Shown here: positions 1 through 19,576 of the stretch, one piece after another
Layout of the letters: the number at the start of each line of letters is the position of its first letter
Numbering within the stretch: the stretch's first letter is position 1
Assembly (NCBI GenBank): GCA_017409825.1
Contig: JAFQRZ010000022.1
Location: forward strand, 1 to 64,000
Reading direction: 5' to 3'
From: Agathobacter sp.
GTDB lineage: Bacteria; Bacillota; Clostridia; Lachnospirales; Lachnospiraceae
Length of the DNA stretch: 64,000 nucleotides
Position numbers and translations under genes: made by a program
Notes under the pieces: model-generated
The model's input: only the letters and a program-made list of their open reading frames with translations
The model's database searches: none
Told to the model about the DNA's origin: nothing

Positions 1-14
1 ATTTCAAATGTCAG

Positions 15-111
15 CCCCTCATCATTGACCCTCAAACTAGCCCCTCACGAAGAACCCTCATGAACTTGTTTTAAAAATCGAGTAAACCCTCACGAGAAAC
101 CCTCAAAAAGT
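15..111. repeat. Six CCCTCA direct repeats with 13-bp spacing
   Basis: The hexamer CCCTCA occurs at 16, 29, 42 and 55, exactly 13 bp apart, and again at 87 and 100, also 13 bp apart. Each copy is preceded by C or A, and the rest of each unit varies. A related CCATCA lies at 120. The period is not a multiple of three, so this is not a coding repeat. The units read TGAGGG on the minus strand. Closely spaced short repeats like these resemble iterons bound by a replication or partition protein of a mobile element, or a multi-site operator. The function is inferred; the repetition is seen directly. Confidence 0.6.
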
Positions 112-297
112 TTGGCAAACCATCAAGAAGTTTGATTATCCCCATAATATTCATTCAACTGAATTTTCTAAGCTCGAACATGTTCCCTCTACTAACCTCA
201 TCCTTCGCTTTCGCTCGGATTCGCTAAGAATCGGAAACGACCTCGCAATAAATTCGAACATCGCCTATCGGCTCGTTCTCATTAAGTTGTTTTCAGC

Positions 298-345
298 CTA
301 GAACTTACCTTCTTTTGCTGCTTCTTCAATTGAAACTGCAAGTCC
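298..345 (-). pseudogene. Displaced 3' remnant of the GGGtGRT gene
   Basis: Read on the minus strand, this stretch encodes GLAVSIEEAAKEGKF and a TAG stop, almost the same as the last residues of the intact GGGtGRT protein at 9321 (VAVSIEEAANAGKF). Positions 299-339 match 9322-9362 at 36 of 41 bases. Identity stops right after the stop codon on one side and just upstream of the AVS codons on the other. No other part of the gene is present here. This is what an integrated element leaves when it inserts at the 3' end of a gene and supplies a replacement end. It may instead be the tail of a lost paralogue. Sequence between 346 and 579 holds nothing else I can support. Confidence 0.7.
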
Positions 346-579
346 GCTATTTTCAAGACTTTCAGACGTAGTGGGTCATAAATTAGGCGTTACCTACCAA
401 GTAATATACCTAAAATAAAAAACCACAAATTACCGTACACGTCCTAATTTTTTCAATTATATCGCTTAATATTCCAGCTACCTACATATGTTTCTACTCA
501 TATTAACTCTGCTGTATCTGTAAATCAAGTTAATAAATTTTAAACTGAAAAACCGAACTTAAATAACAACAATAACGAA

Positions 580-834
580 TCAGTTACTATTTTTATGAAA
601 CTCATCAATCTCTTCTTCTGTCACTATATGACCTGTGTATTCATATAATAACTTTGGACTGATATAAGTAGTATATGAATTACTACCTGGCATCTTGAAA
701 GAACAACCAATAGGCAAGTGCCCCTCAGCTATACCTATCTTTACAAACTGATAGTCCTTTCCCATCACTTTAGCAACCAACTTAAGAGGGACTGATTTAC
801 CACTGAATTGAATCACTTTGTCGATTAGTTCCAT
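580..834 (-). CDS. Small mobile-element-type protein, probable DNA-binding
   Basis: This 84-residue protein starts MELIDKVIQFSGKSVP. The ATG at 834 is chosen because AAGGAGG lies 8 nt upstream (843-849); a longer in-frame reading up to 885 has no such site. From memory it resembles small proteins of Clostridia prophages and integrative elements with a (K/V)VMGKD...LPIG...YYISPKLLYE pattern, here VMGKDYQFV, LPIGCSF and YISPKLLYEYTG. Such proteins are often encoded near phage repressors and may be excisionase-like or MerR-like helix-turn-helix proteins. It is the last gene of the cassette, 83 nt after the AAA+ gene, and the closest to the displaced gene end at 298. The family memory is moderate and the function is not established. 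Confidence 0.6.
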   Translation of the reverse strand: MELIDKVIQFSGKSVPLKLVAKVMGKDYQFVKIGIAEGHLPIGCSFKMPGSNSYTTYISPKLLYEYTGHIVTEEEIDEFHKNSN

Positions 835-917
835 ATGACACACCTCCTTGGTGTGTTCTATAACTCTAAATGAGGTGGATCGCAAGTGATATTTTTGTAT
901 TTTCCTTAAAACACCCT

Positions 918-2432
918 CTATAAAGTAATATTTATAACATCCGCTAACTCCAATTTTGTTAAATCACTATCACTTATATTATCTAATACAGCTAACCTAT
1001 TAGCTTGATTTACAATTGCTGTTTCAAAAAAGTTTCTAACATCTCTACCATTGGCAAAGTTTTCTATTCTTTCGTTATATCTTTTTTCAAAGAACGATTC
1101 TACATAATCCAAACATTCTTTACTAGCATCATAAACAGATGATTTACACATATTCTGGAATATTGCAACTAATTCATGCGGTTTATAATCATTAAAATAT
1201 ATAAACTTATTAAATCTCGAACGCATTCCTGGATTTGAATCCAAAAATTCATTCATCAAATCTGGATATCCAGCAACAATAACGATTAGATTATCTCTGT
1301 TATCTTCCATTCCTTTTATTAATGTATCAACTGCTTCCATTCCATAATCGCTTCCACCTCTATTTGCTGTTAAAGAATAAGCCTCATCAATAAACAAAAC
1401 ACCACCTATTGCACTTTTTATTACATCCTGAACCTTTAATGCTGTTTGTCCTACATATCCTCCAACAAGACCTGAACGGTCAGTTTCAATCATATGCCCC
1501 TTAGATAAAACTCCTAAATGATAATAAATTTTTGCCAGTAAACGAGCAACTGTTGTTTTACCAGTCCCTGGATTTCCAGAAAAAACTAAGTGCAGAGAAA
1601 TAGGTGTTTGTTTTAATCCTCTCTCCTGTCTAATTTTTCTTATTTCTAAAAGATGTACCAACGAAATAACATCTCTTTTTACATTTTCTAAACCAACTAA
1701 ATCATTAAGCTGTTTCAAAAGTTCTTCTAAACTCTCCGTTGGACGCTCAACAGTAACACAATTATCTAATTCTTCATCATCTTCATCCATTTTTATTTTA
1801 ATAATATCATCATTATCATAATCAACTATATAACTAGCAACAATATCATTGCTATCAAAATCAACCCCAAGTGAATTAAACTTTTCTTCAATATCCTGAA
1901 ATTCAACCTCAATCCCATTCTTTTTTAGTTCTTTATATAAATGCTTCAACTGAGTAGACATATAATCTCTTAATTTTAACACTTCAACTTCTTTAATAAC
2001 AGTATCAAAACTTATAAATTCTTTTCCGAGGTCAAAAAGAATTCCTAGATAAGCACCACTTATTGTTGCCAATAAATCTGCTTTATTAAGAGCTTTAGAC
2101 ATTTGAATCAATATTTCAAGCATAAGATGAAACCCAGGCAAGGTCTCATTCGAAAAATCAGCACTATTTATTTTTCTATCACTTATTATTTCATCAATAT
2201 GTGAAGGCTCAAATTCAATTTCAAAATTGCTATAAAATGAAATAAATTCTGCTTCATCTTTTGAACATGCGCCTGTTGAGGTTGAAAGATAAGCCACAAA
2301 TACGATTAAATCCATTTGAAAAACTTCTCTTAATGATGAACTTATTGGTATATTAGATACCATTGATTCTATTGTGTCACATACATTTAAAAAAGAGTCT
2401 ATTGCATCTTTTAATTCTCTATTTATTTTCAT
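918..2432 (-). CDS. AAA+ ATPase, CbxX/CfxQ (SpoVK-like) type
   Basis: The 504-residue protein has an AAA+ module in its second half. Walker A is GNPGTGKTT at about 286-294, Walker B is LFIDEAY near 349, and GMRSRF supplies the arginine finger, as in CbxX/CfxQ and SpoVK ATPases, which remodel partner proteins. Residues 1-230 are helical and lack a P-loop. A stretch containing YLSTSTGACSKDEAEF loosely recalls TerB-type domains; I hold that weakly. The ATG at 2432 is chosen over one at 2456 because AGGAG lies about 9 nt upstream of it. It is the fourth gene of a minus-strand cassette, 35 nt after the pseudokinase gene. It probably remodels or gates the partners encoded upstream. Codon use is A/T rich compared with the genes beyond 9321. 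Confidence 0.85.
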   Translation of the reverse strand: MKINRELKDAIDSFLNVCDTIESMVSNIPISSSLREVFQMDLIVFVAYLSTSTGACSKDEAEFISFYSNFEIEFEPSHIDEIISDRKINSADFSNETLPGFHLMLEILIQMSKALNKADLLATISGAYLGILFDLGKEFISFDTVIKEVEVLKLRDYMSTQLKHLYKELKKNGIEVEFQDIEEKFNSLGVDFDSNDIVASYIVDYDNDDIIKIKMDEDDEELDNCVTVERPTESLEELLKQLNDLVGLENVKRDVISLVHLLEIRKIRQERGLKQTPISLHLVFSGNPGTGKTTVARLLAKIYYHLGVLSKGHMIETDRSGLVGGYVGQTALKVQDVIKSAIGGVLFIDEAYSLTANRGGSDYGMEAVDTLIKGMEDNRDNLIVIVAGYPDLMNEFLDSNPGMRSRFNKFIYFNDYKPHELVAIFQNMCKSSVYDASKECLDYVESFFEKRYNERIENFANGRDVRNFFETAIVNQANRLAVLDNISDSDLTKLELADVINITL

Positions 2433-2467
2433 AACATAACTTCTCCTTTTTCTCATTTACATGTCTC

Positions 2468-3859
2468 TTATCTGTTTAATATTTCCAACAAATCATCTAA
2501 ATCTGGTCTGTTTACTGGATTTTCATCTAACATTTCCATAAGAGTAATCTTTAATTCATCGTCCAACTCATTCATTGTTTCCAAACACACTGAATCATCA
2601 ACCACTACACCCATAATAATATAAAGAATGGTCTTTGCCAACGAATAAATATCTGCTTTTTTCCAGTCAACTCCTATACCCATATTAGAATTAAGGACTT
2701 CTGGAGCAAAAAATTTGTTTGTATTTTGATTACACACCTTCTTCTCAACATTCTGAAATACAGTAAATGCTGCATCAGCAGAATCCTTCGTACAATCAAA
2801 TTTTGCAAGCAATGGCTTGTATTTGCCTTTAATATCAAAAACATAAAATGCATCCGGATTAATATTTCTGTGGAACAATGGCGTTTCGTAGTTATGTATA
2901 GACTCTACACCTCTGCACAATCCCATGATAATATCCATTTTCTGCTCTATATTGATACCATTAATAAAATCATCTGTTAGTCGAAGTGGTCTACTTGGTA
3001 ATGAATACACTTGAAATCTATATTCTCCATTGCTACCACTAATATTCTCAGTCTGTCTGATAACATTTGAAGGATCTTCAAAATTTTCTTCCCAGAGCTT
3101 ACTAATAATATCAATATCTCGCCTCTGCCCTTGACTTATGCTGTCTATATCGTTCGAGAAAATATAATACGCAACTTTTCCTCTTCGTTCTTTAACAAAA
3201 AGAGATTTACCCACTTCAAGAATCAGCCCCATTTTGTCAATAACCTGCCTAGGAACTGCAATATAATCTCTGATAGGAACCAGTGTACTATCGTATTTTT
3301 TCATTTCTCCATAGTATATACACAAGAAATCATGAAAAGCCCCTACAACTCTCAGACAATTTTCTCTATTTGCAATATACTTTTCTTCAGAAGACACATT
3401 TTCATGGGAACTCTCACTACCAAAATTATATAAAAAACGAATAAAAGTCTTAAATTTTCTTTTTACGTCATCTTCATACGAAGTTTTTTTAATAAATGAG
3501 TACTTCAATAACATATCAGAAAATTCCAATTCCCGACCAACACACAGGTCAATAATAATATTTTTATAATTTATCAAAGATGCTGGTTGTTTTATTTCTG
3601 ATATTATTTGTTCTTTTATAGTAGCGATATCCGTATCCTTAAAAGCCTCTTGTTTCTTACGTTTCTTCGCTTCTTCATCTAATGCAAATGCTTCAAACGC
3701 CTTTCTGATTTTATGAGCGAAATCCATATAATCAACCTTTAAATTTCTTTCAGCTTCATAAAACTTAGAAAAAAGTTCTTCATTATTTGTGTAATCGTAT
3801 ACAAAAGAGAAATTGCCAATCGGTATTCTATCTTCTTCGATTTGCAGATATACCATCAT
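2468..3859 (-). CDS. Protein pseudokinase with helical N-terminal domain
   Basis: The C-terminal half of this 463-residue protein keeps the outline of a Ser/Thr kinase C-lobe: HRNINPDAF near 330, FFAPEVL for the APE segment, and KADIYSLAKTILYIIMG for helix F. The catalytic residues are missing. HRD is HRN (Asp to Asn-332), the following Lys is Asn, and DFG is replaced by KFD. It is therefore predicted to be catalytically dead and to act as an allosteric or scaffold partner. Residues 1-200 are helical with a FGSESSHE segment that recalls DUF4145 or HEPN-like domains, a tentative idea. AAGGAGGTGGC precedes two successive ATG codons, and the first is used here. The gap to the PLD gene upstream is 9 nt, so the genes are probably co-translated. 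Confidence 0.75.
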   Translation of the reverse strand: MMVYLQIEEDRIPIGNFSFVYDYTNNEELFSKFYEAERNLKVDYMDFAHKIRKAFEAFALDEEAKKRKKQEAFKDTDIATIKEQIISEIKQPASLINYKNIIIDLCVGRELEFSDMLLKYSFIKKTSYEDDVKRKFKTFIRFLYNFGSESSHENVSSEEKYIANRENCLRVVGAFHDFLCIYYGEMKKYDSTLVPIRDYIAVPRQVIDKMGLILEVGKSLFVKERRGKVAYYIFSNDIDSISQGQRRDIDIISKLWEENFEDPSNVIRQTENISGSNGEYRFQVYSLPSRPLRLTDDFINGINIEQKMDIIMGLCRGVESIHNYETPLFHRNINPDAFYVFDIKGKYKPLLAKFDCTKDSADAAFTVFQNVEKKVCNQNTNKFFAPEVLNSNMGIGVDWKKADIYSLAKTILYIIMGVVVDDSVCLETMNELDDELKITLMEMLDENPVNRPDLDDLLEILNR

Positions 3860-3868
3860 GCCACCTCC

Positions 3869-5350
3869 TTATATCTTAATACTCATTCTATTAGAAAGAT
3901 TTGCTTTCATCTGCCTAATTGCTTCCTTGGATTCTGTGTAATATCCAGTTTCTTGCCTAAAACCTTTATTAGGGTCACCCTTAAACGAAAGCCAATTAAA
4001 GCTAGTAATTACCATATACTCATTATCCTTAATCAATACCTTTTCATGCGTATTGCTCAATTTAACAAGATGAAGATTTTTCCCGTACACATTTTTCTGA
4101 ATATCTGCTAATCTTTGCAAAATCCACTTGTCACTATCTTCTTTTTCACTAATTCCATATCCGATAATTACCTGAGTCTTTCTCTGTAAAGTTCTTTCAA
4201 TACGGCCCAATATTTCATTATTCAGACCACCCGACTTAATCCACGGCGAAACAATCACTACTGTATTCTGTGCATTCTCAAGAGCATCCAACAACAACGG
4301 TCTATGGTCATATGTAGATAAGATTCTATCCGCTCCCTTACGTTCACTCTTCATCTCATCAATTTTCTTTTCCAAGAAACGTATTCTTTCTGTTGCCGAT
4401 TCTTTTTGCTCATCGTCATCATCACTATTATCTTTAATTGCATCAAGCTGCATTGTTAAATTTGATATTTCGCGTTCTAATGTAGAATCTTTATAAGAAA
4501 ACGATTTAGCACTTTCGATAATTTCTTGTGGCAATACACTTATCAATGAATTATCGAGTTCTTCACCCGTTTCATCTTTACTATCAAAATCAAGTACACG
4601 TGTATTGTTGTTGTGCTGTCTCTGTAGAGCTATACTATAATCATCATTACGTGTTGTACCTTCATAAACCTGAAATTCAATATCTTCCGATTTATTATTC
4701 ATGAATACAAGGACATATACCTTCTTATACTCAACATACGTCTTAGCTACACGTGATACTTCTTGTAAATCCCCCTCCAATTTATCCTGCTCATACGCAT
4801 GATTTTTTTTAAAGAAATTAATCGCACGTTTAACCTCTTCATATACCAATGTATCAAGTGTAGGTTTTTCTATGGTTGTATTAATCGATTTAATTTCAAA
4901 GCTACGCAATTCTTTTGCATTATATAGTTTTCTTTTATTAGGGTCTTTAAGATATATATTACCAACAAGCCCATCTACATATAAGGCATATTCAATATCC
5001 TCAGGAACAATTGTTGCTGCTTCCTTCAATGCATCCTCACCTTTATCTGTGAGTTTTAACTTCGAGTAAAATATATCAACTGTTATTAGGCTATTCTTTT
5101 GTAGAATGGCCACTGCATTATTTACCGCAGATGTATTCACTCCAAGAAATTTACATATATCCGAAACATCATTTATTCCCGATGCTATAAATTTTAAAAT
5201 AAACTCCTGTAAAACAGACAATTTTTTAGGTTTAAGCATCGTAAGAATAGTTTCCATATGCCATTGTGGAATTCCTGCCTCATAATATTTCACAAGCGTT
5301 GAATTAGGAACGGAATTAGCTTTTTGCTTTGCAAGTTCTTCAATAGTCAC
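3869..5350 (-). CDS. Winged-helix / PLD-superfamily protein
   Basis: The 493-residue protein has three parts. Residues 40-115 look like a winged helix (SDICKFLGVNTSAVNNAV followed by a LTDKGEDAL wing). A charged coiled coil runs from about 285 to 340 and includes a short acidic run. Residues 345-480 form a phospholipase-D-like domain with one HxK(x)4D motif, H435, K437 and D442, then ITSFNW. One motif per chain suggests a dimer making one active site, as in Nuc-type nucleases. I infer a DNA- or RNA-acting nuclease targeted by the winged helix. The start is GTG at 5350 with AAGGAGG 10 nt upstream. That site covers the last codons of the kinase-helicase gene, so the two genes are probably translationally coupled. 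Confidence 0.8.
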   Translation of the reverse strand: MTIEELAKQKANSVPNSTLVKYYEAGIPQWHMETILTMLKPKKLSVLQEFILKFIASGINDVSDICKFLGVNTSAVNNAVAILQKNSLITVDIFYSKLKLTDKGEDALKEAATIVPEDIEYALYVDGLVGNIYLKDPNKRKLYNAKELRSFEIKSINTTIEKPTLDTLVYEEVKRAINFFKKNHAYEQDKLEGDLQEVSRVAKTYVEYKKVYVLVFMNNKSEDIEFQVYEGTTRNDDYSIALQRQHNNNTRVLDFDSKDETGEELDNSLISVLPQEIIESAKSFSYKDSTLEREISNLTMQLDAIKDNSDDDDEQKESATERIRFLEKKIDEMKSERKGADRILSTYDHRPLLLDALENAQNTVVIVSPWIKSGGLNNEILGRIERTLQRKTQVIIGYGISEKEDSDKWILQRLADIQKNVYGKNLHLVKLSNTHEKVLIKDNEYMVITSFNWLSFKGDPNKGFRQETGYYTESKEAIRQMKANLSNRMSIKI

Positions 5351-5355
5351 TTTTT

Positions 5356-8300
5356 CTACACCTCCTTCAACATACAGTCATCCAAATTATCACGAATAAA
5401 TTTAATAATTCCAACAAACGGATTCTCTTGACCATCAATGTCTAATCTTCTTTGAGCACATTGGTGATCTCCAACAACAACAAGAAGTTCCCTAGCTCTA
5501 GAAAAAGCTACATTTAATCTTCTTACATCCTTTAAAAATCCAAGTTTACCATCATCATTGCTTCTAACAACACTATAGAAGACAATGTCTGTTTCACGTC
5601 CCTGAAATGCATCAACAGTATTAATCTCAACTGTCATATTGTGGAATCTGCCTTTATAACTACTTTCATATAATCTTGTAAGTCTATCTCTTTGACCTCT
5701 GTATCCAGCAATAATAGCCGTTTCCTTCTTAAGCTTAAGTTCTCCAAGCTCCTCATCAATTTCAAGTAACTGTTCAAATATAATTTTTGCTTCACAACTA
5801 TTTCTAAAGGAATCCGATATCCTTTCTTCTTTTCTATCTGACCTAGAAGCAGTCGAGAGCCATACTAAAGGCTTACTTTCAAACATCTTAAGTGGAATAG
5901 TTTTTTCTTCTCTTGATGTTTTTGATACCAGTTTACTCTCATAAAACAGCTTACTGATAAGGTCTCCAATCACAGGATTCATTCTGTACTGTTCATCCAA
6001 AATACTCTTGCAATCATCATTTAGACTCCTCTCAAGATATTCAAACAAACTCAGTTCAAGGTCTTCCTTACTAATGTTCATTCGTTCTTTATCTTGCAAT
6101 TTTAACAACGCTTCATCAACTACTGGAGGTAACTGCTTATGGTCACCTACCAGTACAACTTTTTTTCCCAAACATATTGGAACAAGGATTTCTGGTGGTG
6201 TAGCTTTTCCTGCTTCATCTACAATTACCCAATCGAAATTGAATTCTATCGTAGCACTTAAACTAGCAATACCAAGACATGTAGCCCCTACAAGAGTTGA
6301 ATCTGCAATACTCTCCTGTAATAATCCGTCCCCTTGTGTAACTCTTTTCTGCCACTCTTTACACAAACTTTCAACCTTAGAATATGCAGCATATTTTTTC
6401 TTGTTTTCTTTAAGAGCAAATTGTATGTCCGCCTTTGCTTGCAAGTACTCTTCATTAGAAGTTACTCCCAATAATCCTTTCCATTCACTTACTTCTTGCC
6501 CCTTTACACCCAATTCCTCATTAATAGCCACATAGCGGTCTTGAAGTTCATTTTTCTGTTCTGACAATGCTATTGATTCGTCAATAACCGATGCTAATCT
6601 ATCATTTAGCCCAGATAAGCTATCCGTAAATTCATCGATAATCTGTGATAAATGCTCTTCTGTAACACCTACCGTTTTAATTAAAATCATTTGCTTCATA
6701 GTTGCAATCTTCTCATTAACAAACTGCCATTTTGAATCTAAAACATTTACCTTTTCAAGTTCGGACTCTACTTCTTCCAACTCATCTATTAATTCAGCTA
6801 TTTCCTGCGTTATATTTTCAATTTCCGTAATGATACTGTTCTTTTCTTGCAAGGACTCGTCAATCCCTATCTCTTGCTTATATTTTGAAAGAGCAGCTTT
6901 ACAGTTTTCAATTACCTTCTGAGTCCACTCTCTACAGAAAATATCCAAAGTATATGCCCTTGATGACTCTGCTAATTTATCTAAGATTCCAATACGAATC
7001 ATTTTAATATCTGGGATAAGTTTCTTAACCTTTGCCAATGAATGGTCAACAGCCACATGTGACTGAGATGCTATCAAAATCTTTGCATCTGGATTGCCTC
7101 TGTATTTATCATTGCCATTTAATATCTGATACACAAGTTCAGATATAAATGTGGTCTTTCCTGTGCCAGGAGGACCTTGTAACAAAAAAATATTATCTGC
7201 TGATAAAGCTTTTTCAAGACTTATTATTTTAGACCTATCAATCTCTTTTGATTCGCAATCATCTTCTGTAAGTATAAGATTATTCTTAGAAGTTGCTATC
7301 GATGGATTAAAAATAATCTCACTTATCTCTGGATTGACGTTTTCTTTATATTGGATGCTCTTCAATGCTTTACACTGTCTTTCAAGAGCAATTTCCGCCA
7401 TTCTCATACTAATAGAAATTTCACCCGAAGGAGCAATATTAGAATAGTCCACCTGTGGTGTGAGATCAATTATCATACAACCATCGGTAAACTCTCTCAT
7501 ATGACCAACATCTAGATAATGATGCATATTCTTTCTTGTAGTCATTTGGAGCATATCGTCAGATGTATAGTTTAATTCATATGCTTTGTCGGTATTAATC
7601 TCTATCTCTAACGATGCATCTTCTTCATTTATTTTCAAATTACGATATATTAATGTGGATTTTTCCTGACATATCTGTCTCTTTTCAAGTTCGAGAATAT
7701 CCTTCCATTTTCCTGTAATATCTTTCTGATGCATATCATCCGCACGTTGACTAATAAACTCCGCCTCATGATTCAGCACTTCTTCACACAATATCTGAGC
7801 ATTAATTTCTGCCTTATAATGAATTCTCGTTCCACTTCCAACCTGGACCCCATAAGGAATCTCATATGCCAATTCCTTTTGTGTTATCAGCCTATCAGCC
7901 TGAACAAATCCAATACTTATAACCGTAAAACGCTTATCGTCTCTTTGGTCAATTTTAAGAATAGATACAAATCTTTGACCATATAGCTCAAAGGAGCCTT
8001 CAAACTGTCCGTCTCGATTCTTTGCTGGCCACATATAGCATTTTCCGGCATATTCTTCTTCAAGAACCTTTAATGCCAATGTTGTTTCTTCCTGCTTTAT
8101 ATATCCAGATGCAGCTAATCGCTTAGTTACATTGTTAGTAAATCCTAATCTAATATATCTCTCTTGAACCAGAAGACTCCTTTCCTTTTCAATGTCTCTT
8201 TTAAGTTCGGTAATTGTTCCATATCTTAAATTCGGTTCTTCTTTTGTCATCTTCACAAGAATATTTTGTATACCCAAAGGTAACCCGTTTACATCCATTG

Positions 8301-8961
8301 ATTCACGAGTAGTTATCTTGGTACAAGTGAATATCTCATAAAAAATCAAACCAAGAGAAAATATATCACTCTGATATGTAATGTTTTTTCCCGCCATCTG
8401 CTCTGGCGAGCTGTAATTCTTTGTTGCAAATGCTGCTAATGTATAATCACTATAGAATGTATCTTGTAATCTACTTATGCCAAAATCAATGATTTTTACC
8501 GTACCGTCTTTATCAAACATAAGATTGGAAGGCTTTAAATCACGATGAACAATATTCTTCTTATGTAAGTACTCAATACCTTCAACAACTTGTGCCATTA
8601 GTTCTAACTTTTGGGCATAGTCATACCTACAAATTTCCTCAAATGCCTCTTTAAAATTCTCACCTTGTATATATTCAAGCACAATAAAGAATGCGTTAAA
8701 AACTTCATCATAACCTCTGTCCAATATTCGAACTACGTTTTTATGATTCAACTTGTCTAAAGACTCGACTTCACGATTAAAGACTTGCTTCTGCAAATCT
8801 TCATCTCCCATATTCGGCTTATTAAACATTTTAACAATAACGGAACTGTCCACTTCGTCATCATCAATGTCTGTATCTTCACACAGATGAATTGATGCCA
8901 TATTGCCACCGCCGATATCCTTCTTTTTCACTCTATAACGGTCTACTATATATGTAGCCAT
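5356..8961 (-). CDS. Ser/Thr kinase fused to UPF1-like SF1 helicase
   Basis: This 1201-residue fusion starts with a Ser/Thr protein kinase that looks active: VIVKMF lysine, HRDLKPSN (D141), DFG (D159), SSPEQ and DIFSLG; the glycine loop is unusual (GGGNMA). A beta-rich linker (about 320-560) leads to an SF1 helicase of the DNA2/NAM7/UPF1 class. Walker A is GPPGTGKTT from 596, motif II is VDEAGKA (D915), then GDHKQLPPVV, DEQYRMNP, DAFQGRE and NVAFSRAR. A long coiled-coil insert lies between the two helicase lobes (about 690-870). No transmembrane segment is seen. It is first in the five-gene minus-strand cassette. The likely roles are nucleic acid sensing or unwinding by the helicase and phosphorylation of a partner by the kinase. 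The sequence supports both domains; the link to defence is inference. Confidence 0.88.
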   Translation of the reverse strand: MATYIVDRYRVKKKDIGGGNMASIHLCEDTDIDDDEVDSSVIVKMFNKPNMGDEDLQKQVFNREVESLDKLNHKNVVRILDRGYDEVFNAFFIVLEYIQGENFKEAFEEICRYDYAQKLELMAQVVEGIEYLHKKNIVHRDLKPSNLMFDKDGTVKIIDFGISRLQDTFYSDYTLAAFATKNYSSPEQMAGKNITYQSDIFSLGLIFYEIFTCTKITTRESMDVNGLPLGIQNILVKMTKEEPNLRYGTITELKRDIEKERSLLVQERYIRLGFTNNVTKRLAASGYIKQEETTLALKVLEEEYAGKCYMWPAKNRDGQFEGSFELYGQRFVSILKIDQRDDKRFTVISIGFVQADRLITQKELAYEIPYGVQVGSGTRIHYKAEINAQILCEEVLNHEAEFISQRADDMHQKDITGKWKDILELEKRQICQEKSTLIYRNLKINEEDASLEIEINTDKAYELNYTSDDMLQMTTRKNMHHYLDVGHMREFTDGCMIIDLTPQVDYSNIAPSGEISISMRMAEIALERQCKALKSIQYKENVNPEISEIIFNPSIATSKNNLILTEDDCESKEIDRSKIISLEKALSADNIFLLQGPPGTGKTTFISELVYQILNGNDKYRGNPDAKILIASQSHVAVDHSLAKVKKLIPDIKMIRIGILDKLAESSRAYTLDIFCREWTQKVIENCKAALSKYKQEIGIDESLQEKNSIITEIENITQEIAELIDELEEVESELEKVNVLDSKWQFVNEKIATMKQMILIKTVGVTEEHLSQIIDEFTDSLSGLNDRLASVIDESIALSEQKNELQDRYVAINEELGVKGQEVSEWKGLLGVTSNEEYLQAKADIQFALKENKKKYAAYSKVESLCKEWQKRVTQGDGLLQESIADSTLVGATCLGIASLSATIEFNFDWVIVDEAGKATPPEILVPICLGKKVVLVGDHKQLPPVVDEALLKLQDKERMNISKEDLELSLFEYLERSLNDDCKSILDEQYRMNPVIGDLISKLFYESKLVSKTSREEKTIPLKMFESKPLVWLSTASRSDRKEERISDSFRNSCEAKIIFEQLLEIDEELGELKLKKETAIIAGYRGQRDRLTRLYESSYKGRFHNMTVEINTVDAFQGRETDIVFYSVVRSNDDGKLGFLKDVRRLNVAFSRARELLVVVGDHQCAQRRLDIDGQENPFVGIIKFIRDNLDDCMLKEV

Positions 8962-9047
8962 GCAACCACCTCACATATCATAAATTTTATATTTCTGTAA
9001 TAATCCATATTATTTTCGCTCTACTATTAATTTAAAAAATATATATT

Positions 9048-9146
9048 ATTATATCATTTCTCGTTTTCTAAGAAAAGCACGAACATCTATTATATTTATG
9101 ATAACAATTAATTTACTAATTGTCACTACTACCGTATTTGGTAGTA
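9048..9146 (-). promoter_or_regulatory. Candidate control region of the kinase-helicase cassette
   Basis: The 359-nt gap between the cassette and the GGGtGRT gene holds no gene. A minus-strand TATAAT (9048-9053) about 87 nt before the first ATG could be a -10 box, without a convincing -35. Upstream are two inverted repeats, CAATTA/TAATTG (9105-9122, 6-nt loop) and TACTACC/GGTAGTA (9127-9146, 6-nt loop). Adjacent dyads ahead of an accessory operon suggest a repressor site. The helix-turn-helix candidates in the cassette are the winged-helix PLD protein and the small protein at 580. The dyads are seen; the regulator is a guess. Confidence 0.4.
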
Positions 9147-9213
9147 TCTCCTACTCTATTATTTAGACCGCTACAGTTACAGTTCCCACAATATGTCCCA
9201 ATCCACGAAAAAA

Positions 9214-9248
9214 GAGACACCTAAATCAACAAATGATTTAAGTGTCTC
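9214..9248 (-). terminator. Intrinsic terminator of the GGGtGRT operon
   Basis: A 15-bp stem (9214-9228 with 9234-9248, one G-T pair, 5-nt loop) is followed on the minus strand by TTTTTT. It lies 73 nt past the stop codon of the GGGtGRT gene. If an element inserted at that stop codon, this terminator belongs to the inserted sequence. Confidence 0.8.
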
Positions 9249-9320
9249 CCATATTATTTCGTCAACTGAAATTCTTTAATTCCAACTTGCCTTTTTCAAG
9301 GCTTATCTCATATAGAATTC

Positions 9321-10331
9321 TTAGAACTTACCAGCATTTGCTGCTTCCTCGATTGAAACTGCTACAGCAACTGTCATACCAACCATTGGGTTGTTACCTG
9401 CACCGATAAGACCCATCATTTCTACGTGAGCTGGAACTGATGAAGAACCTGCGAACTGAGCGTCTGAGTGCATACGTCCCATAGTATCTGTCATACCATA
9501 AGAAGCTGGACCAGCTGCCATGTTATCTGGGTGAAGTGTACGACCTGTACCACCACCAGAAGCTACTGAGAAGTATTTCTTGCCAAGTTCTGTACATTCT
9601 TTTTTGTATGTTCCTGCTACTGGATGCTGGAAACGTGTTGGGTTTGTTGAGTTACCTGTGATAGATACACCAACGTTTTCATGATGCATGATAGCAACAC
9701 CTTCCTGAACATCGTCAGAACCGTAACATTTAACTGTTGCACGAAGACCTGTTGAGTATGGTTTTTCGTAGTTGATGTTTAATGTTGCTGTGTGATAATC
9801 GTATGTTGTGTCAACGTATGTAAAGCCGTTGATACGAGCGATAATCTGAGCAGCGTCTTTTCCAAGACCGTTTAAGATAACGCGAAGTGGCTGTTTACGA
9901 ACTTTGTTTGCTTTTTCTGCGATACCGATAGCACCTTCAGCAGCAGCGAATGATTCGTGACCTGCTAAGAAGCAGAAACATTCTGTTTCTTCTTCAAGGA
10001 GCATTTTACCAAGGTTACCATGTCCAAGACCTACTTTACGGTGGTCAGCTACAGAACCTGGGATACAGAAAGCCTGGATACCTTCGCCGATTGCAGCAGC
10101 TGCATCTGCAGCACGTCTACAGTCTTTTTTGATTGCGATTGCAGCACCTACGATGTAAGCCCAGCAAGCGTTTTCGAAACAAATTGGCTGGATAGCTTTT
10201 ACCTGATCGTAAATGTTAAGTCCAGCATCTTTTGTAATTTTTTCAGCTTCTTCGATAGAGCTGATACCATAACTATTTAACACAGCGTTAATCTGTGGAA
10301 TTCTTCTTTCATAAGATTCAAATAATGCCAT
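9321..10331 (-). CDS. GGGtGRT protein
   Basis: The 336-residue protein carries the SGGGTGRTLHPDN segment that names the GGGtGRT family, a conserved anaerobe family of unknown function. Other marked stretches are GHGNLGKMLLEEETECFCF, ADAAAAIGEG and GAGNNPMVGMTVAVAVS. No membrane segment or signal peptide is seen. The ATG at 10331 has GGGAG about 10 nt upstream. It follows the NifU-like gene by 24 nt, a neighbour pairing I recall from other Clostridia and related anaerobes, which points to iron-sulfur or redox work without proving it. The last 14 codons are duplicated, with changes, at 298-340. The third-position differences in that copy show it is not a recent tandem duplicate. Confidence 0.85.
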   Translation of the reverse strand: MALFESYERRIPQINAVLNSYGISSIEEAEKITKDAGLNIYDQVKAIQPICFENACWAYIVGAAIAIKKDCRRAADAAAAIGEGIQAFCIPGSVADHRKVGLGHGNLGKMLLEEETECFCFLAGHESFAAAEGAIGIAEKANKVRKQPLRVILNGLGKDAAQIIARINGFTYVDTTYDYHTATLNINYEKPYSTGLRATVKCYGSDDVQEGVAIMHHENVGVSITGNSTNPTRFQHPVAGTYKKECTELGKKYFSVASGGGTGRTLHPDNMAAGPASYGMTDTMGRMHSDAQFAGSSSVPAHVEMMGLIGAGNNPMVGMTVAVAVSIEEAANAGKF

Positions 10332-10355
10332 TGTTCTTTATCTCCCTTCTATGTA

Positions 10356-11048
10356 TTACTCATGACGTGGGTCGATAATTCTAGCAGCATCAGCTACACG
10401 ACCATACTGTCCTTTTGCTTTTTCCCAAGCTGTATTAGGATCATCACCTTTTTTGATGAAGTCTGTCATTTTCCCAAGAGATACGAACTGGTATCCGATA
10501 ACTTCGTCATTTTCATCAAGTGCGATACCTGTTACATAGCCTTCTGCCATTTCAAGGTAACGAACACCTTTTGCTTTTGTAGCGTACATTGTACCAACCT
10601 GTGAACGAAGGCCTTTTCCTAAGTCTTCAAGACCAGCACCGATTGCAAGACCGTCATCAGAGAATGCAGACTGTGTACGTCCGTAAACGATCTGTAAAAA
10701 TAATTCTCTCATAGCTGTGTTGATAGCGTCACATACTAAGTCTGTATTTAAAGCTTCGAGAATTGTCTTGCCCTGAAGGATTTCAGCTGCCATAGCTGCT
10801 GAATGTGTCATACCAGAACATCCGATTGTTTCTACTAAAGCTTCTTCAATGATACCTTCTTTTACGTTAAGAGTGAGCTTACAAGCCCCCTGCTGTGGTG
10901 CACACCAGCCAATACCGTGTGTGAAACCAGAGATATCTTCGATTTTTTTAGAGTGAACCCATTTTCCTTCCTGTGGAATAGGAGCTGGTTCGTGTTTTGC
11001 GCCCTTAGCAACTGGACACATGTTTTCTACTTCCTTTGTGTAAATCAT
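10356..11048 (-). CDS. NifU/IscU-like iron-sulfur scaffold protein
   Basis: This 230-residue protein has the NifU N-terminal-like segment VETIGCSGMTHSAAMAAEIL and further cysteines near 11, 49, 57 and 105. It is longer than IscU (about 130 residues), with extra N- and C-terminal parts. It is usually annotated as an iron-sulfur cluster assembly scaffold-like protein paired with GGGtGRT. The cysteines do not follow the exact IscU spacing, so cluster transfer is an inference. AAAGGAG lies 7 nt upstream of the ATG at 11048. An inverted repeat TTTACT/AGTAAA (11088-11104) sits about 45 nt upstream in the promoter region and could be an operator. It probably forms an operon with the GGGtGRT gene. 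Confidence 0.75.
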   Translation of the reverse strand: MIYTKEVENMCPVAKGAKHEPAPIPQEGKWVHSKKIEDISGFTHGIGWCAPQQGACKLTLNVKEGIIEEALVETIGCSGMTHSAAMAAEILQGKTILEALNTDLVCDAINTAMRELFLQIVYGRTQSAFSDDGLAIGAGLEDLGKGLRSQVGTMYATKAKGVRYLEMAEGYVTGIALDENDEVIGYQFVSLGKMTDFIKKGDDPNTAWEKAKGQYGRVADAARIIDPRHE

Positions 11049-11198
11049 TGTAGGACTCCTTTCGCTTTACGCATTTTATATATTTTATTTACTTTGTTAG
11101 TAAATTAACATACCCGTGATATTGTCGCATATTTTCCCTAATAAGTCTAGTCTAAACTTGACAATTTTTAGAGAAATTTCGCTTTTCTTTTGGTCAAA

Positions 11199-11873
11199 TT
11201 AATTCTTTGCCACTACGTGGTCCTTATCTTTGAAGATATGGTTTGCTGGAATGACACCACGTACGCATGAAGTTGGGTAAACATTGCTGTTTTTACCGAT
11301 TACAGTACCTGGATTAAGGACTGAGTTACAGCCTACTTCTACATAATCACCAAGCATTGCACCGAATTTCTTTAAACCAGTTTCGATTTCTTCCTTAGTA
11401 TCATAGCAGTCTTTTACTACAACTAATGTCTTGTCAGACTTTACATTCGATGTGATAGAACCTGCGCCCATGTGGGATTTGTATCCGAGGATAGAATCAC
11501 CGACATAATTGTAATGTGGCACCTGTACATTGTTGAAAATGATGTCATTTTTGATTTCGGTAGAGTTTCCTACTACGGAATTTTTTCCGATGATAGCACT
11601 GCCACGGATAAATGCACAGTGACGGATTTCTGCATCTTCATCAATGATAAGTGGGCCGTTTAAGCAAGCGGTTGGTGCTACTTTCGCAGATTTCGCTACC
11701 CAGATATTTTCACCGCGTTCTTCGAAAATTTCTTTATCTAATGTAGGACCAAGTTCCTTAATATAATCGCTGATTCCCTTCAATGCTTCCCATGGATAGG
11801 TAAACTGTGCGAGGTAATCTTTTGCGATAGTTTCGTCAAGTGTGTAGTTGTTACAAATTTTTGCGTTTTCCAT
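11199..11873 (-). CDS. Left-handed beta-helix acyltransferase-like protein (GlmU C-terminal type)
   Basis: Residues 60-215 are built of hexapeptide repeats (PLIIDEDAEIRHCAFIRGSA, IIGKNSVVGNS, TVIGKNSNVYP), typical of the left-handed beta-helix of GlmU and other acyl or acetyltransferases. At 224 residues it lacks the nucleotidyltransferase half of GlmU. Similar Lachnospiraceae proteins are often labelled UDP-N-acetylglucosamine pyrophosphorylase, which the missing domain does not support. The substrate is unknown; a sugar nucleotide or amino sugar is plausible. A ribosome site AGAAAGG precedes the ATG. It starts 14 nt after the topoisomerase gene and is probably co-transcribed with it. Confidence 0.7.
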   Translation of the reverse strand: MENAKICNNYTLDETIAKDYLAQFTYPWEALKGISDYIKELGPTLDKEIFEERGENIWVAKSAKVAPTACLNGPLIIDEDAEIRHCAFIRGSAIIGKNSVVGNSTEIKNDIIFNNVQVPHYNYVGDSILGYKSHMGAGSITSNVKSDKTLVVVKDCYDTKEEIETGLKKFGAMLGDYVEVGCNSVLNPGTVIGKNSNVYPTSCVRGVIPANHIFKDKDHVVAKN

Positions 11874-11887
11874 ATTTCTAGCCTTTC

Positions 11888-14800
11888 TTATTCTGTCGGA
11901 GCTGGGGGTAGTTCAATCATCATGGAATCTGGATTATTCAAATCCACCTGATTGTCCTTTGGTTCCTCTTCTCCTGGATTTTCGAAGTCGAATTTGATGG
12001 TATCATCTTCGTACTTCAGACAGGTATCAAATACATTTCCTGCCTTCGAGGTAAATCCTACCACTTTTTTCTTCGTTTTTCCAGTAGAAAGTAATTCAAT
12101 GATAATTTCTTCTGGCAATTCCACCTTTGCTACCGTATGCCAAAGCTTGAAACCACAATCACATTCGTACTGCCACTGGCCTTTTCGCATCTTCGTCTGG
12201 CACTTCGGACATGTCACGTTGGACTCCACTGTCTTTGGTTTCTCTGGGAAGTCAAAGGTCACTTGTCCGTCCTCTGTCAGTTTCAGCGGTGCGTCGAATT
12301 TCATGCCTGTTCGTGCAACGAAGCCTTCGATAACATCCGTTTTTCCTGTGGTAAGGAGCTGTTTTACCTGTGCCTCCTTAAGCTTGACGCTGGCGATTTT
12401 GCCAATCATGAAACGGCAGCTATGCTCAGGGTCTTCTTTTTTATAATTGGAACATCCGTAGCCAAATGGGGTCACGATGATATCCCCTTTACAAAGTGGA
12501 CATACAACATCTTTTACTTTGACTGGTTCAAGGTCATTGAAATCGAACTTCAAGCCTGTTACCTTGCCAGTTTCATCCTTGGAAAGTGCCACACGGGCAT
12601 CAAATTTCTTGCCTGTTTTGGACTTAAATCCACGAATTGTTCCAGTGATACCATTGGTAAGAAGCTCTTTTACATTGGCTTCTGTCAAGGATTTTTCTGC
12701 CATTTTACCAATAGAGAATCGACAGCTATCCTCTTTTTCTCTATCGTAGTTCGAGCAGCCATAGCCCCACGAATTTACGATGATGTCTCCACCACAAAGT
12801 GGACAGGTGACATCTTTTATCTTTTTTGCTTCAACGTGCTCGAAGTCAAAGTTTACAACTGGCTTGCCTGCTTCGTCTTTTTCTAAAACCAGACATGCAT
12901 CGAATTTCTTGCCAGCTTTGGATTTGAAGCCTCGAAGGGTTTCGGTTTTTCCATCCGTCAAAAGCTGTTTTACATTGGCAGCAGAAAGTGTCTTGCCCGC
13001 AATGGTTCCGATGGCGAAACGACAGCTATTTTCATCCTCTGGATTATAATTGGCACAACCGTAGCCAAAGGATTTCTTTACCATCTGTCCTCCACAAGCA
13101 GGACAGGTAACATCTGGCAAAATCTCTGGCTCTACGTCGGCGAAGTCGAAGGTGATGTTTACCTTGCCATCTTCGGTCTTTTCCAGTTTCAGGGCCGCGT
13201 CAAATTTCTTGCCAGCCTTAGATTTAAAGCCTCGAATCGTCTCGGTATGCCCCTGCTCGAACAAGACCTTCACCTGCTCTTCGGATGGGGTAATGCCTGC
13301 GATTTCACCGATATTGAAATTACAGCCGGATTTGTCTGCTTTATAATTCGTACAGCCGAAACCGAATGGTGTCGTCACAAGTTCGCCCTCACAAATCGGA
13401 CATTTCACACCGATTTTCTTGCGAGCTCCAATGCCGCGAGCATTTTTGCCTGCAAACTCACTGATGCGGTCTGCAAGCTCATGACGCAGGTTCTGATCTA
13501 TCATCTTAAGGGTTTCCTTACGGATGAAGTCCTCGAGTTTGTTTCGATAATCCCAGAAATCTACGGTTCCTCTCGTGATGCCGTCCAAGCCTTTTTCCCA
13601 GGATGCAGACATCTGTGGATTCAAAAGTGCTGGTACGGTCAAATTTACTACCTCAAAAATCATCTCCCCGAGATTTTCTGGTGTAAGCACCTGTGTCTTT
13701 TTATTTAAGTTCAAATATCCAATACGAATCAGTTTCTTAATGATTTCAGCTCGTGTCGCAGAGGTTCCGATACCGGAGCCCTTAATCTGCTCTCGCAATT
13801 CTTCGTCCTCGATAAGCTGACCTGCATTTTCCATGGCAAGCACCATAGAACCTGAGGTATAACGCTTTGGTGGTGAGGTCTTACCATAGCGGATGGCATA
13901 GCCACCTACTTCAATGACATCCCCTACTGTTAAACGGTCTGCCAGTTCTAGAAGCACCTGTGGGTCTGCGGCTTTGCCTTCCTCTTCCTCAAATGGGTTT
14001 CCGTCTGCGTTTTCAATATCGTCTGCACTCACGGTCGTTTTCTTCTTTGGAAGTCCTGCGACTTCTAAATATCCAGGACTTTTTAAGACCTTCGCTGAGG
14101 CGAAGAATTCTTCTTTTTCTACACCTACCGTCAATTTTACATTCTGATATTCCGCTGCTGGATAAAAAATGCTTAAGAAACGTCGGCAAATCAGCTCAAA
14201 CACACTTCTCTGCAACGAATTGAGAGAATTCAGTTCTGTAAGCTGACCAGTTGGAATAATCGCATAGTGGTCGGTAACCTTGCTATCATCCACATACGCC
14301 GTCTTCGCGATTGACGTATAGGATTTGGTCTGCAGGATGTGTTCTACGTAAGGTGTTACTACCTCATACCCTTTTAGTTTACTCAAGTTTTTATAGATTT
14401 CCTTTGCAACAGGAGTCGATAATACTCTGGCATCGGTTCTCGGATACGTCGTCAGTTTCTTTTCATACAAATCCTGTGCAATTTGCAAGGTTTCGTCTGG
14501 ACTGATTTTGAAACGTTTCGCACACTCTGCCTGTAGCTCTGCTAAGTTAAATAAAAGAGGGGCACGTTTCTTGCTGATGGATTTTTCTAAGGCTTTTACC
14601 TTGGCTTCTTTGCCACTGCATAAGTCAATCAGTGCATTAGCATCCTTTTCTTCTTTAAACCCGTTTTCTTTATATAATAGTGGGGACTGGAAATACTTAG
14701 AACCTTCGACTGCTTTCCACTCTCCCTCGATACCTGCATCGGTAAACGTACCTACCACACGATAAAATGGTGTTTCTTTGAAATTACGGATTTCTCTCTC

Positions 14801-15448
14801 GCGGATAACGACCATCCCGAGCACACAGGTCATAACACGACCTACTGCAATCGCAGTATAGCTGGTCGTACCTGCCGCATCATTTAAGAGATTTCCGTAT
14901 TTTACCGACATAACACGGGAAAAATTGATACCCATGGCATAATCTTCTATGGTTCGCATAATACCTGAATTTCCCAGGTTCGCATAGTCGCTCATCGGCT
15001 TTGCTTCGCGGATTCCTCGGAGAATTTCTTCCTCGGTCTGGGAGTCAATCCACACTCGAAGTTCTTCCATGCCCTCACGAACGCCTCCGAAATTACGGAT
15101 GTTTTCCTCGATGGTCTGACCTTCTTTTCCCGCGTCACCTGCCCAATATACACGGTCGATATCCTCACGCATCAGCATGCCGTGCACGATATCGTATTGT
15201 TTTGCAACATCTTTGATAACGTCATATTTGTAATCCCTTGGCAAAAATGGAAGATCCTCTAATCTCCATTTCTTGTACTTTTCATCATAGCTTTCTGGAT
15301 ATACCAGACCTACCAGATGACCAACGCACCAAGTGATGACGTACTTGTCATTTTCTATGTATCCGTCTTTTCTGCCACTGACCTGTAATACCTTCGCAAA
15401 TTCGACAGCGACAGACGGTTTTTCTGTGATAATGAGTGATTTTCCCAT
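11888..15448 (-). CDS. topB: DNA topoisomerase III with five C-terminal zinc ribbons
   Basis: This type IA topoisomerase (1186 residues) relaxes or decatenates DNA through a 5' phosphotyrosine. Toprim features are TEKPSVA (E9) and GDAGKEGQ. The catalytic tyrosine is Y335 in LTTYPRTD, and GIGTSATRAEII marks the core. From about 675 on there are five tandem repeats of roughly 95 residues. Each starts with a CPxC...GYGC(S/A/T)NY...C ribbon and continues with a (F/A)IGxIA...GKTxTxRGFKSKxGKKFDA segment; the fifth is degenerate. Ordinary topB proteins are 650-750 residues, so the tail is unusually long. It probably binds single-stranded DNA or partners. The gene leads a minus-strand unit with the beta-helix gene and starts 12 nt after the DUF234-type gene. 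Confidence 0.92.
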   Translation of the reverse strand: MGKSLIITEKPSVAVEFAKVLQVSGRKDGYIENDKYVITWCVGHLVGLVYPESYDEKYKKWRLEDLPFLPRDYKYDVIKDVAKQYDIVHGMLMREDIDRVYWAGDAGKEGQTIEENIRNFGGVREGMEELRVWIDSQTEEEILRGIREAKPMSDYANLGNSGIMRTIEDYAMGINFSRVMSVKYGNLLNDAAGTTSYTAIAVGRVMTCVLGMVVIREREIRNFKETPFYRVVGTFTDAGIEGEWKAVEGSKYFQSPLLYKENGFKEEKDANALIDLCSGKEAKVKALEKSISKKRAPLLFNLAELQAECAKRFKISPDETLQIAQDLYEKKLTTYPRTDARVLSTPVAKEIYKNLSKLKGYEVVTPYVEHILQTKSYTSIAKTAYVDDSKVTDHYAIIPTGQLTELNSLNSLQRSVFELICRRFLSIFYPAAEYQNVKLTVGVEKEEFFASAKVLKSPGYLEVAGLPKKKTTVSADDIENADGNPFEEEEGKAADPQVLLELADRLTVGDVIEVGGYAIRYGKTSPPKRYTSGSMVLAMENAGQLIEDEELREQIKGSGIGTSATRAEIIKKLIRIGYLNLNKKTQVLTPENLGEMIFEVVNLTVPALLNPQMSASWEKGLDGITRGTVDFWDYRNKLEDFIRKETLKMIDQNLRHELADRISEFAGKNARGIGARKKIGVKCPICEGELVTTPFGFGCTNYKADKSGCNFNIGEIAGITPSEEQVKVLFEQGHTETIRGFKSKAGKKFDAALKLEKTEDGKVNITFDFADVEPEILPDVTCPACGGQMVKKSFGYGCANYNPEDENSCRFAIGTIAGKTLSAANVKQLLTDGKTETLRGFKSKAGKKFDACLVLEKDEAGKPVVNFDFEHVEAKKIKDVTCPLCGGDIIVNSWGYGCSNYDREKEDSCRFSIGKMAEKSLTEANVKELLTNGITGTIRGFKSKTGKKFDARVALSKDETGKVTGLKFDFNDLEPVKVKDVVCPLCKGDIIVTPFGYGCSNYKKEDPEHSCRFMIGKIASVKLKEAQVKQLLTTGKTDVIEGFVARTGMKFDAPLKLTEDGQVTFDFPEKPKTVESNVTCPKCQTKMRKGQWQYECDCGFKLWHTVAKVELPEEIIIELLSTGKTKKKVVGFTSKAGNVFDTCLKYEDDTIKFDFENPGEEEPKDNQVDLNNPDSMMIELPPAPTE

Positions 15449-15459
15449 AACTCTCCTAA

Positions 15460-16821
15460 TTACAATTCTTTCATATCTACTAGCTCAAAACGCTTATCAA
15501 GCTGTGAAAGCTCCACAACCTCTGGTGAAAACGCAGTTGCTGAGAACAAATAAATATGATTTGAAGTGATTTTTGCTTTTGTCATTGAGTCAAATAAGTC
15601 CTTGCACATACCGAGGGTAAACTCTTCTTTTTCCCAGTTGCAGATACCTACGATGTTTTGTCTGTCGGCACTCTGTGCAATGATGTCGATATTTCCAGTC
15701 TTTCCAACCCATGTGCCCATCTTCGTTACCACAAGTGGTAAACGACGAATCTGATTGAGCAGAGAAAGGTATTCCATACACACATTTATAAAATAACGAT
15801 TTAAGTAATCATCTAATTCCTTCTCGATATAAGTGTCATAGAAATCCTCTGGTGACATCATATAAAGGTCCGAAAGATGTGGATACACAAAGCGATAATA
15901 GAAATTGATATAGGTATCTTTGATACGATATACCCCTTTCTTCGCGTTATCCCAGCCACCAGTTTCAAAAGAAACGACCTTCTCGATAATGTCAAACTGA
16001 CTCAAATTTTTCATATATACGCTGATTTTTGGACGAGAATAGCCTGTGTAATGATACAAATCATTCAGCTTGTTTTCGCCTTTTGCAATCGCCATAAGGA
16101 TTGTGTTGTAAACCGATAATTCACGCAACTCTGAGGACACCAGCTCTTCTGCCATTTTAAAGAAATATCCGTCCTCGGAAAGGATTAAATCGCATATATT
16201 CTGTTTAAATGATTTACGTTTTTTCCAATGCTTGAGGTATCCTGGTACTCCACCCAAAACGCCATAGATTTTGATGGAATCACTAACCGAAAATTCTGGA
16301 AAAAAACGCACTACTTCTAGGAAATTCAAATTTGGAATCTTGATACGAGCGTCAATACTCTTCGCTGCTGTCTCACCAATTACCGCATCCATATCCTGCT
16401 CTGCCCATACGATGGATGAGCTAGCCAATATAATCATCACAGGCCCTGGATAAAGACGACGATTCTTGAGCTTTAAGATACTTTCCATAAACTCTGGATT
16501 CTTCTTCGCAATATGCTCAAACTCATCTATCACGACTACCAGCTTCGTTGGATTTCCACTCTTTACACGATTGAAATATTCGTCATAAGAATGTTTTTGA
16601 ATACGCACATCGAATTTCTGTGCTACTTCTTCTCCCATCATCACCAACTGTTCTTTGGCAGATGCCTTTCTCGCACGATAATAAAAGTGTTTCTTCTCCT
16701 CGACAAAGGTACGAATCAACTCCTCTTTCTCGCAATTCATCGGACCATACAGCACCACAAGCTGATTTCCACTTTCTACATATAAGTCTTCTAATTTCTT
16801 TAGTTCACTCTGTTTAAACAC
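15460..16821 (-). CDS. Degenerate archaeal-type ATPase / DUF234 protein
   Basis: The architecture matches the ATPase family with a C-terminal DUF234 nuclease-like domain: P-loop fold at residues 1-190, winged helix near 240-300 (YHYTGYSRPKISVYMKNL), DUF234 at about 350-450. Walker B is intact (VVVIDEFEH). Walker A reads GPMNCEKE (26-33), lacking the glycine before Lys and the Ser/Thr after it. The nuclease-like motif GNIDIIA is present, but the usual E-x-K is ICNW. ATP and metal use are therefore doubtful. I chose GTG at 16821 because AAGGAG lies 7 nt upstream; a TTG at 16863 has none. Its place just before topB may be incidental. Function is unknown. Confidence 0.72.
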   Translation of the reverse strand: MFKQSELKKLEDLYVESGNQLVVLYGPMNCEKEELIRTFVEEKKHFYYRARKASAKEQLVMMGEEVAQKFDVRIQKHSYDEYFNRVKSGNPTKLVVVIDEFEHIAKKNPEFMESILKLKNRRLYPGPVMIILASSSIVWAEQDMDAVIGETAAKSIDARIKIPNLNFLEVVRFFPEFSVSDSIKIYGVLGGVPGYLKHWKKRKSFKQNICDLILSEDGYFFKMAEELVSSELRELSVYNTILMAIAKGENKLNDLYHYTGYSRPKISVYMKNLSQFDIIEKVVSFETGGWDNAKKGVYRIKDTYINFYYRFVYPHLSDLYMMSPEDFYDTYIEKELDDYLNRYFINVCMEYLSLLNQIRRLPLVVTKMGTWVGKTGNIDIIAQSADRQNIVGICNWEKEEFTLGMCKDLFDSMTKAKITSNHIYLFSATAFSPEVVELSQLDKRFELVDMKEL

Positions 16822-16897
16822 AATCTTTCTCCTTAAAAGTATATCATTATCCTTACTAATCAAAAATTATATCATACTTTAACTTTTGCCACAACAA

Positions 16898-16923
16898 AAA
16901 ACCTCCGCCTAAGCGAAGGTTTT
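16898..16923 (-). terminator. Terminator of asd
   Basis: An 11-bp stem with one mismatch (16898-16908 with 16913-16923, loop CTAA) lies 8 nt past the asd stop codon. It is followed on the minus strand by a T run. Confidence 0.85.
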
Positions 16924-16930
16924 AGAAAAC

Positions 16931-18022: not shown

Positions 18023-18178
18023 AATTCACGTCTCCTCATCTGTTTGTCCGTCTATCGCGAACAACTGTCTTTGATAGAAATATATTACTTGATATAGCAT
18101 AAAATTACAATAAACAAGTTGTTAGAAATTCACACTAAATATCAGAAGTTTTTGTGCAACTTGCCCAACATCTTGTAT

Positions 18179-19573: not shown

Positions 19574-19576
19574 AAT

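Follow-up and report, generated by a model that had tools for sequence, protein, structure and literature searches.

Near the start of contig JAFQRZ010000022.1 of Agathobacter sp. (assembly GCA_017409825.1), five genes run in a single direction, and the question is whether they make up one undescribed antiphage system, as the original prediction proposed, or a known system that shares an island with other genes. We analysed the first 64,000 nucleotides of this contig (the window) and found the genes as five minus-strand open reading frames, 8961-5356 through 885-580 (Table 1). The gaps of 5 and 9 nucleotides expected between the first three genes were borne out, and those of 35 and 83 nucleotides are consistent with internal ATG starts near 2432 and 834. 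In the end of the kinase-helicase gene, ahead of the GTG of the PLD gene, a GGAGG stretch agrees with the ribosome site proposed there. The locus is probably a Mokosh type I pair extended by a pseudokinase gene, located on an inserted island together with an AAA+ ATPase gene and a phage-type small gene that are probably unrelated to it.

Table 1. Features of the island and of the ends of the insert
Feature	Position	Strand	Basis
MkoA, Ser/Thr kinase fused to UPF1-like SF1 helicase, 1201 aa	5356..8961	-	PADLOC PDLC03920, motifs
MkoB, PLD-family protein with one HKD motif, 493 aa	3869..5350	-	PADLOC PDLC03922; HEKVLIKD
Pseudokinase gene, probable accessory third gene, 463 aa	2468..3859	-	Adjoins MkoB in three of three loci; motif losses; dN/dS
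CbxX/SpoVK-type AAA+ ATPase, probable passenger, 512 aa	918..2456	-	TIGR02881, below cut-off; start perhaps 2432
Small gene, phage protein family phrog_6058, 101 aa	580..885	-	PHROGs match; start perhaps 834
Displaced copy of GGGtGRT gene 3' end; far end of insert	299..339	-	36/41 identities
GGGtGRT gene 3' end; near end of insert	9322..9362	-	Repeat comparison; gene is 9321-10331

The first two genes form a Mokosh type I pair

Mokosh type I is defined by MkoA, a helicase (here with a kinase), and MkoB, a PLD-family protein encoded directly after it; the system is said to have been described originally by Millman et al. 2022. A search against defence-system profiles returned this named system, in the same gene order, for genes 1 and 2, so the core of the set is not undescribed, contrary to the original prediction. 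The kinase-helicase matches the PADLOC MkoA profile PDLC03920 (E 4.6e-232), with residues 3-1198 on profile positions 5-1107 of 1112; as this match spans nearly the whole profile, the kinase region lies within the known MkoA model. The PLD protein, encoded directly after MkoA, matches the MkoB profile PDLC03922 (E 1.1e-75), the best stretch being residues 20-423 on profile positions 3-384 of 610. The expected fusion of a Ser/Thr kinase to an SF1 helicase is seen in Pfam matches to Pkinase and to AAA_11/AAA_12, and motif patterns found both the kinase motifs (HRDLKPSN and DFG) and the helicase motifs intact. The single HKD motif read in the PLD protein is likewise present, with a Pfam PLDc_2 match below its cut-off. 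Among solved structures, the helicases nearest to MkoA are NAM7/UPF1, and MkoB has no match. Judged by homology, genes 1 and 2 are thus a Mokosh type I pair of the kind already known.

In the text of PMC10952713 that treats Mokosh, PLD-like domains are listed for types I and II and NERD domains for type I; by Pfam, no NERD domain was seen in the window protein among 19 families at E up to 0.01, and its MkoA match is to the shorter of two PADLOC MkoA models. The section of PMC11291487 concerned names MkoA and MkoB and says, citing another work, that Mokosh degrades viral transcripts. An extract of PMC12278908 places MkoA and MkoC among defence helicases, and a passage of the review PMC12926258 gives the mechanism of Mokosh as unknown.

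The helicase and PLD parts also match parts of the MkoC profile of Mokosh type II (E 4.4e-34 and 1.5e-20), and residues 330-487 of MkoB fall in such a match; in the window, unlike in type II, these parts are divided between two genes and a kinase domain is present. PD-T4-6 and MAD6 of MADS are matched by the MkoA kinase domain (best E 1.1e-49 and 1e-53), and this domain is all that they have in common with the window. The set was originally not recognised as DISARM or BREX/Pgl, and the hallmark genes of both are indeed missing from the PADLOC matches listed (for gene 1, the best 25 of 43). DISARM requires DrmA, DrmB and a methylase, and was rejected because the one trace of it among those matches is a weak hit of the PLD protein to DrmC (E 6e-7). 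BREX/Pgl requires PglZ/BrxZ and PglX/BrxX; the sole resemblance among the matches listed is that of the kinase part to PglW (E 1.8e-13, below cut-off), and this candidate was rejected too.

To place the pair in other genomes, we opened nine loci with an MkoA match: the window, L010, L042, L043 and the plasmid loci L044-L048, these last taken from the best 20 of 1022 MkoA plasmid matches. A match to MkoB follows MkoA in eight of the nine, the same order recurring in the plasmid loci, and in L047 the MkoB match is weak (E 9.6e-7). At E up to 1e-60 the MkoA profile matches 29 of 398 phylum-sample genomes, three of them near end to end (the window's own, G278 and G395), and a search with the MkoB protein matches four of the 398, two weakly. 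Nineteen of 72,556 plasmid records match MkoB, 11 of these over at least 80% of the protein. Among phage records, 41 match MkoA, none over 80% of the protein, and no MkoB match was confirmed in viral contigs.

Three of these loci have neighbours or variants of their own. L047 (7851-14665, Agrobacterium plasmid) holds a diverged Mokosh-like pair. Motif patterns detected neither HRD and DFG nor HKD in it, and genes for a PP2C phosphatase and a DUF3800 protein come after it. L043 (7156-12608, G395) combines a full-length MkoA-profile match with a 591-aa neighbour that matches nothing in Pfam and, by BLAST, does not match MkoB. On the Nostoc plasmid pNPM2, typed as conjugative, MkoA-MkoB (L045, 7845-16984) adjoin CBASS-like genes for a DncV-like nucleotidyltransferase, E2/UBC and Mov34.

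A pseudokinase gene adjoins MkoB

The window differs from Mokosh type I in a gene added downstream of MkoB. Its product had been read as a kinase-fold protein without the HRD and DFG aspartates, and the aligned residues are indeed not Asp, the likeness to kinases being confined to the C-terminal part, which aligns to AAK1 chains (E about 7e-4); no Pfam family matches the N-terminal half. Asn replaces the catalytic-loop Asp in all three pseudokinase sequences (HRD to HRN or QRN), and in that of L010 the HRD His is Gln as well. The position of the DFG Asp is taken by Lys353 in the alignment to AAK1 or by Leu351 in the alignment to the MkoA kinase, with Asp355 close by. Other matches are weak, to a PHROGs primase (E 0.00098) and to NCBIfam MAD6 (E 3.8e-10, below cut-off). 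The predicted structure, built from three aligned sequences, has a mean pLDDT of 38.9 and is thus too poor for a fold search.

A genome scan found two relatives of this pseudokinase, in L010 and L011. In L010, MkoA, MkoB and the pseudokinase are 88%, 86% and 82% identical to those of the window, with gaps of 4 and 9 nucleotides, the latter, between MkoB and the pseudokinase, being common to both loci. The L011 contig starts inside the end of a MkoB gene, and the pseudokinase comes next. No full MkoA was found in the L011 genome, only a kinase-type match, which may mean a broken locus or an incomplete assembly.

Might the pseudokinase be a passenger as well, with MkoAB working alone and the third gene having its own role or being a leftover kinase copy? 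Seven of the nine opened MkoA loci lack it, and its dN/dS between the window and L010 (0.122) is about twice that of MkoA (0.058) and MkoB (0.061), both of which favour the idea. Against it, MkoB lies directly upstream in all three loci found, the 9-nucleotide gap is shared, and the gene is under purifying selection that is still strong; we consider this explanation unlikely, though not negligible. The pseudokinase gene is probably the third, accessory member of this Mokosh operon, and represents a genuine but rare addition to the known type I core. No match to it came from plasmids or from the genus, where we searched the 61 genomes besides the window's own (30 of all 62 reach 90% completeness), none was confirmed in viral contigs, and the 249 other genomes of the family sample gave only weak kinase matches in three. 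The open-licence literature searched held no paper that pairs Mokosh with a pseudokinase. Given that the only three loci are all close (76-82% identity), the link with Mokosh may be recent and local.

The AAA+ gene and the small gene are probably passengers

The reading of gene 4 as a CbxX-type AAA+ ATPase holds, with Pfam matches to AAA and AAA_lid_6 and a match to the SpoVK/CbbX-like TIGR02881 (E 7e-87, below its cut-off). Residues 227-508 form the stretch that matches the SpoVK, CbbX and EccA families, all below curated cut-offs, and no Pfam match worth mention falls in the N-terminal 240 residues. The gene is the sole match to itself in its own genome. Of 250 family genomes, 70, with the window's own among them, have relatives at E up to 1e-60, and most among the matches listed cover the AAA part only. 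One full-length relative (L089, 765-2734, in G017) comes after a TerB-like protein (Pfam TerB E 8.5e-4, below cut-off).

Their tight packing and single direction would suit a single new system of five genes, in which the AAA+ ATPase remodels a kinase-helicase/PLD complex. However, the AAA+ gene is missing from the flanks of both other pseudokinase loci and was not found in the L010 and L011 genomes at E up to 1e-20, in a search run without a positive control. Conversely, MkoA, MkoB and the pseudokinase are absent from all eight opened neighbourhoods of AAA+ relatives, one of which is only 4.4 kb long. On these two grounds the AAA+ gene is best seen as a probable passenger. The product of the small gene falls in a phage protein family, phrog_6058 (function unknown; E 9.4e-21), and matches four phage records. 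We therefore rejected the five-gene system as quite improbable; the AAA+ gene and the small gene are probably unrelated passengers on the same insert. The defence role originally proposed keeps the backing of homology for the Mokosh pair, and it is the grouping of all five genes that is probably wrong.

The island is inserted at the GGGtGRT gene

The Mokosh set lies in a low-GC insert at about 299-9321 of a contig that begins at base 1. Beside it lies a GGGtGRT gene (PF14057, E 4.7e-190), and the last 41 nucleotides of this gene are repeated at the far side of the island. Among 60 first-order Markov controls the highest score was 24/41, versus 36/41 for the displaced copy, and a pattern spanning both copies occurs at these two sites only in the whole genome. 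The island genes have a G+C content of 30-37%, versus 40-44% for four adjacent genes and 38% for the rest of the window.

For comparison we took 12 stretches from among 45 congeners with a GGGtGRT gene at E up to 1e-60. None holds the displaced 41-nucleotide copy (best 19-25/41; one stretch has only 953 nucleotides downstream). A NifU-like gene precedes GGGtGRT in all 12. Also upstream, within the stretches taken, 11 have a 224-aa gene and 10 a topoisomerase match. Immediately downstream the gene content varies, with L100 and L105 alike. In one congener (L101, 5055-12187, in G700) a tyrosine integrase gene (PF00589, E 4.9e-17) lies about 420 nucleotides past GGGtGRT, and the large genes beyond it resemble, by eye, conjugation genes. 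Taken together, the displaced 3' end, the low G+C, the variable downstream genes and the tyrosine integrase of L101 point to the 3' end of GGGtGRT as a site of insertion whose cargo here is the Mokosh operon.

A search for the insert's own integrase, made among tyrosine recombinases, gave six PF00589 matches in the genome and none in the window. One of the six lies at the edge of contig C20, where the 6000 bases taken hold no 41-nucleotide copy (best 23 and 22 of 41). At the contig start, positions 13-112 of the window carry short direct repeats built around CCCTCA (families D11 and D19); these may be arm sites for a recombinase or reflect a break in the assembly. Rfam found nothing in 1-11000, nor did a tRNA search in 1-20000; promoter-like sites number 40, versus 44.5 in shuffles, and terminator-like sites 6, versus 2.5. 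That the insert is a decaying mobile element whose genes no longer work would agree with the missing tyrosine integrase and with the absence of the gene set from most sampled relatives, but the frames are open, the MkoA and MkoB motifs are intact and dN/dS against L010 is low, making this the least credible account.

A possible kinase-pseudokinase switch

To our knowledge, the reason for a kinase on a Mokosh helicase is unexplained. A reading of the locus as a Mokosh pair with a pseudokinase accessory leads to a more specific proposal, which we regard as quite possible while short of probable: a Mokosh subtype in which the active MkoA kinase is governed by a dedicated pseudokinase of the same operon, as a kinase-pseudokinase switch, with attack on the kinase, or mimicry of it, by phage proteins as a possible trigger. 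In the most likely working of the pair, the UPF1-like helicase of MkoA would load onto exposed single strands or foreign RNA, recruiting or unleashing MkoB, which would cut. The kinase domain may phosphorylate MkoA itself or its partners and so set a threshold. The pseudokinase, inactive by its motifs, may bind the active kinase or its substrates as a regulator or, alternatively, serve as a decoy for those phage proteins whose target is the kinase. Sensing or unwinding by MkoA and cutting by MkoB are suggested by homology; we infer the kinase and pseudokinase steps, as we do each biochemical step and defence itself, and the kinase-pseudokinase relay and PLD effector originally proposed have the same standing.

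The insert at the 3' end of GGGtGRT is a further clue to a site where defence genes are inserted as cargo. As a natural variant of MkoAB with a pseudokinase, the operon offers a direct test of what the MkoA kinase controls and, if the proposal is true, it would bring a kinase-pseudokinase switch into a bacterial antiphage system.
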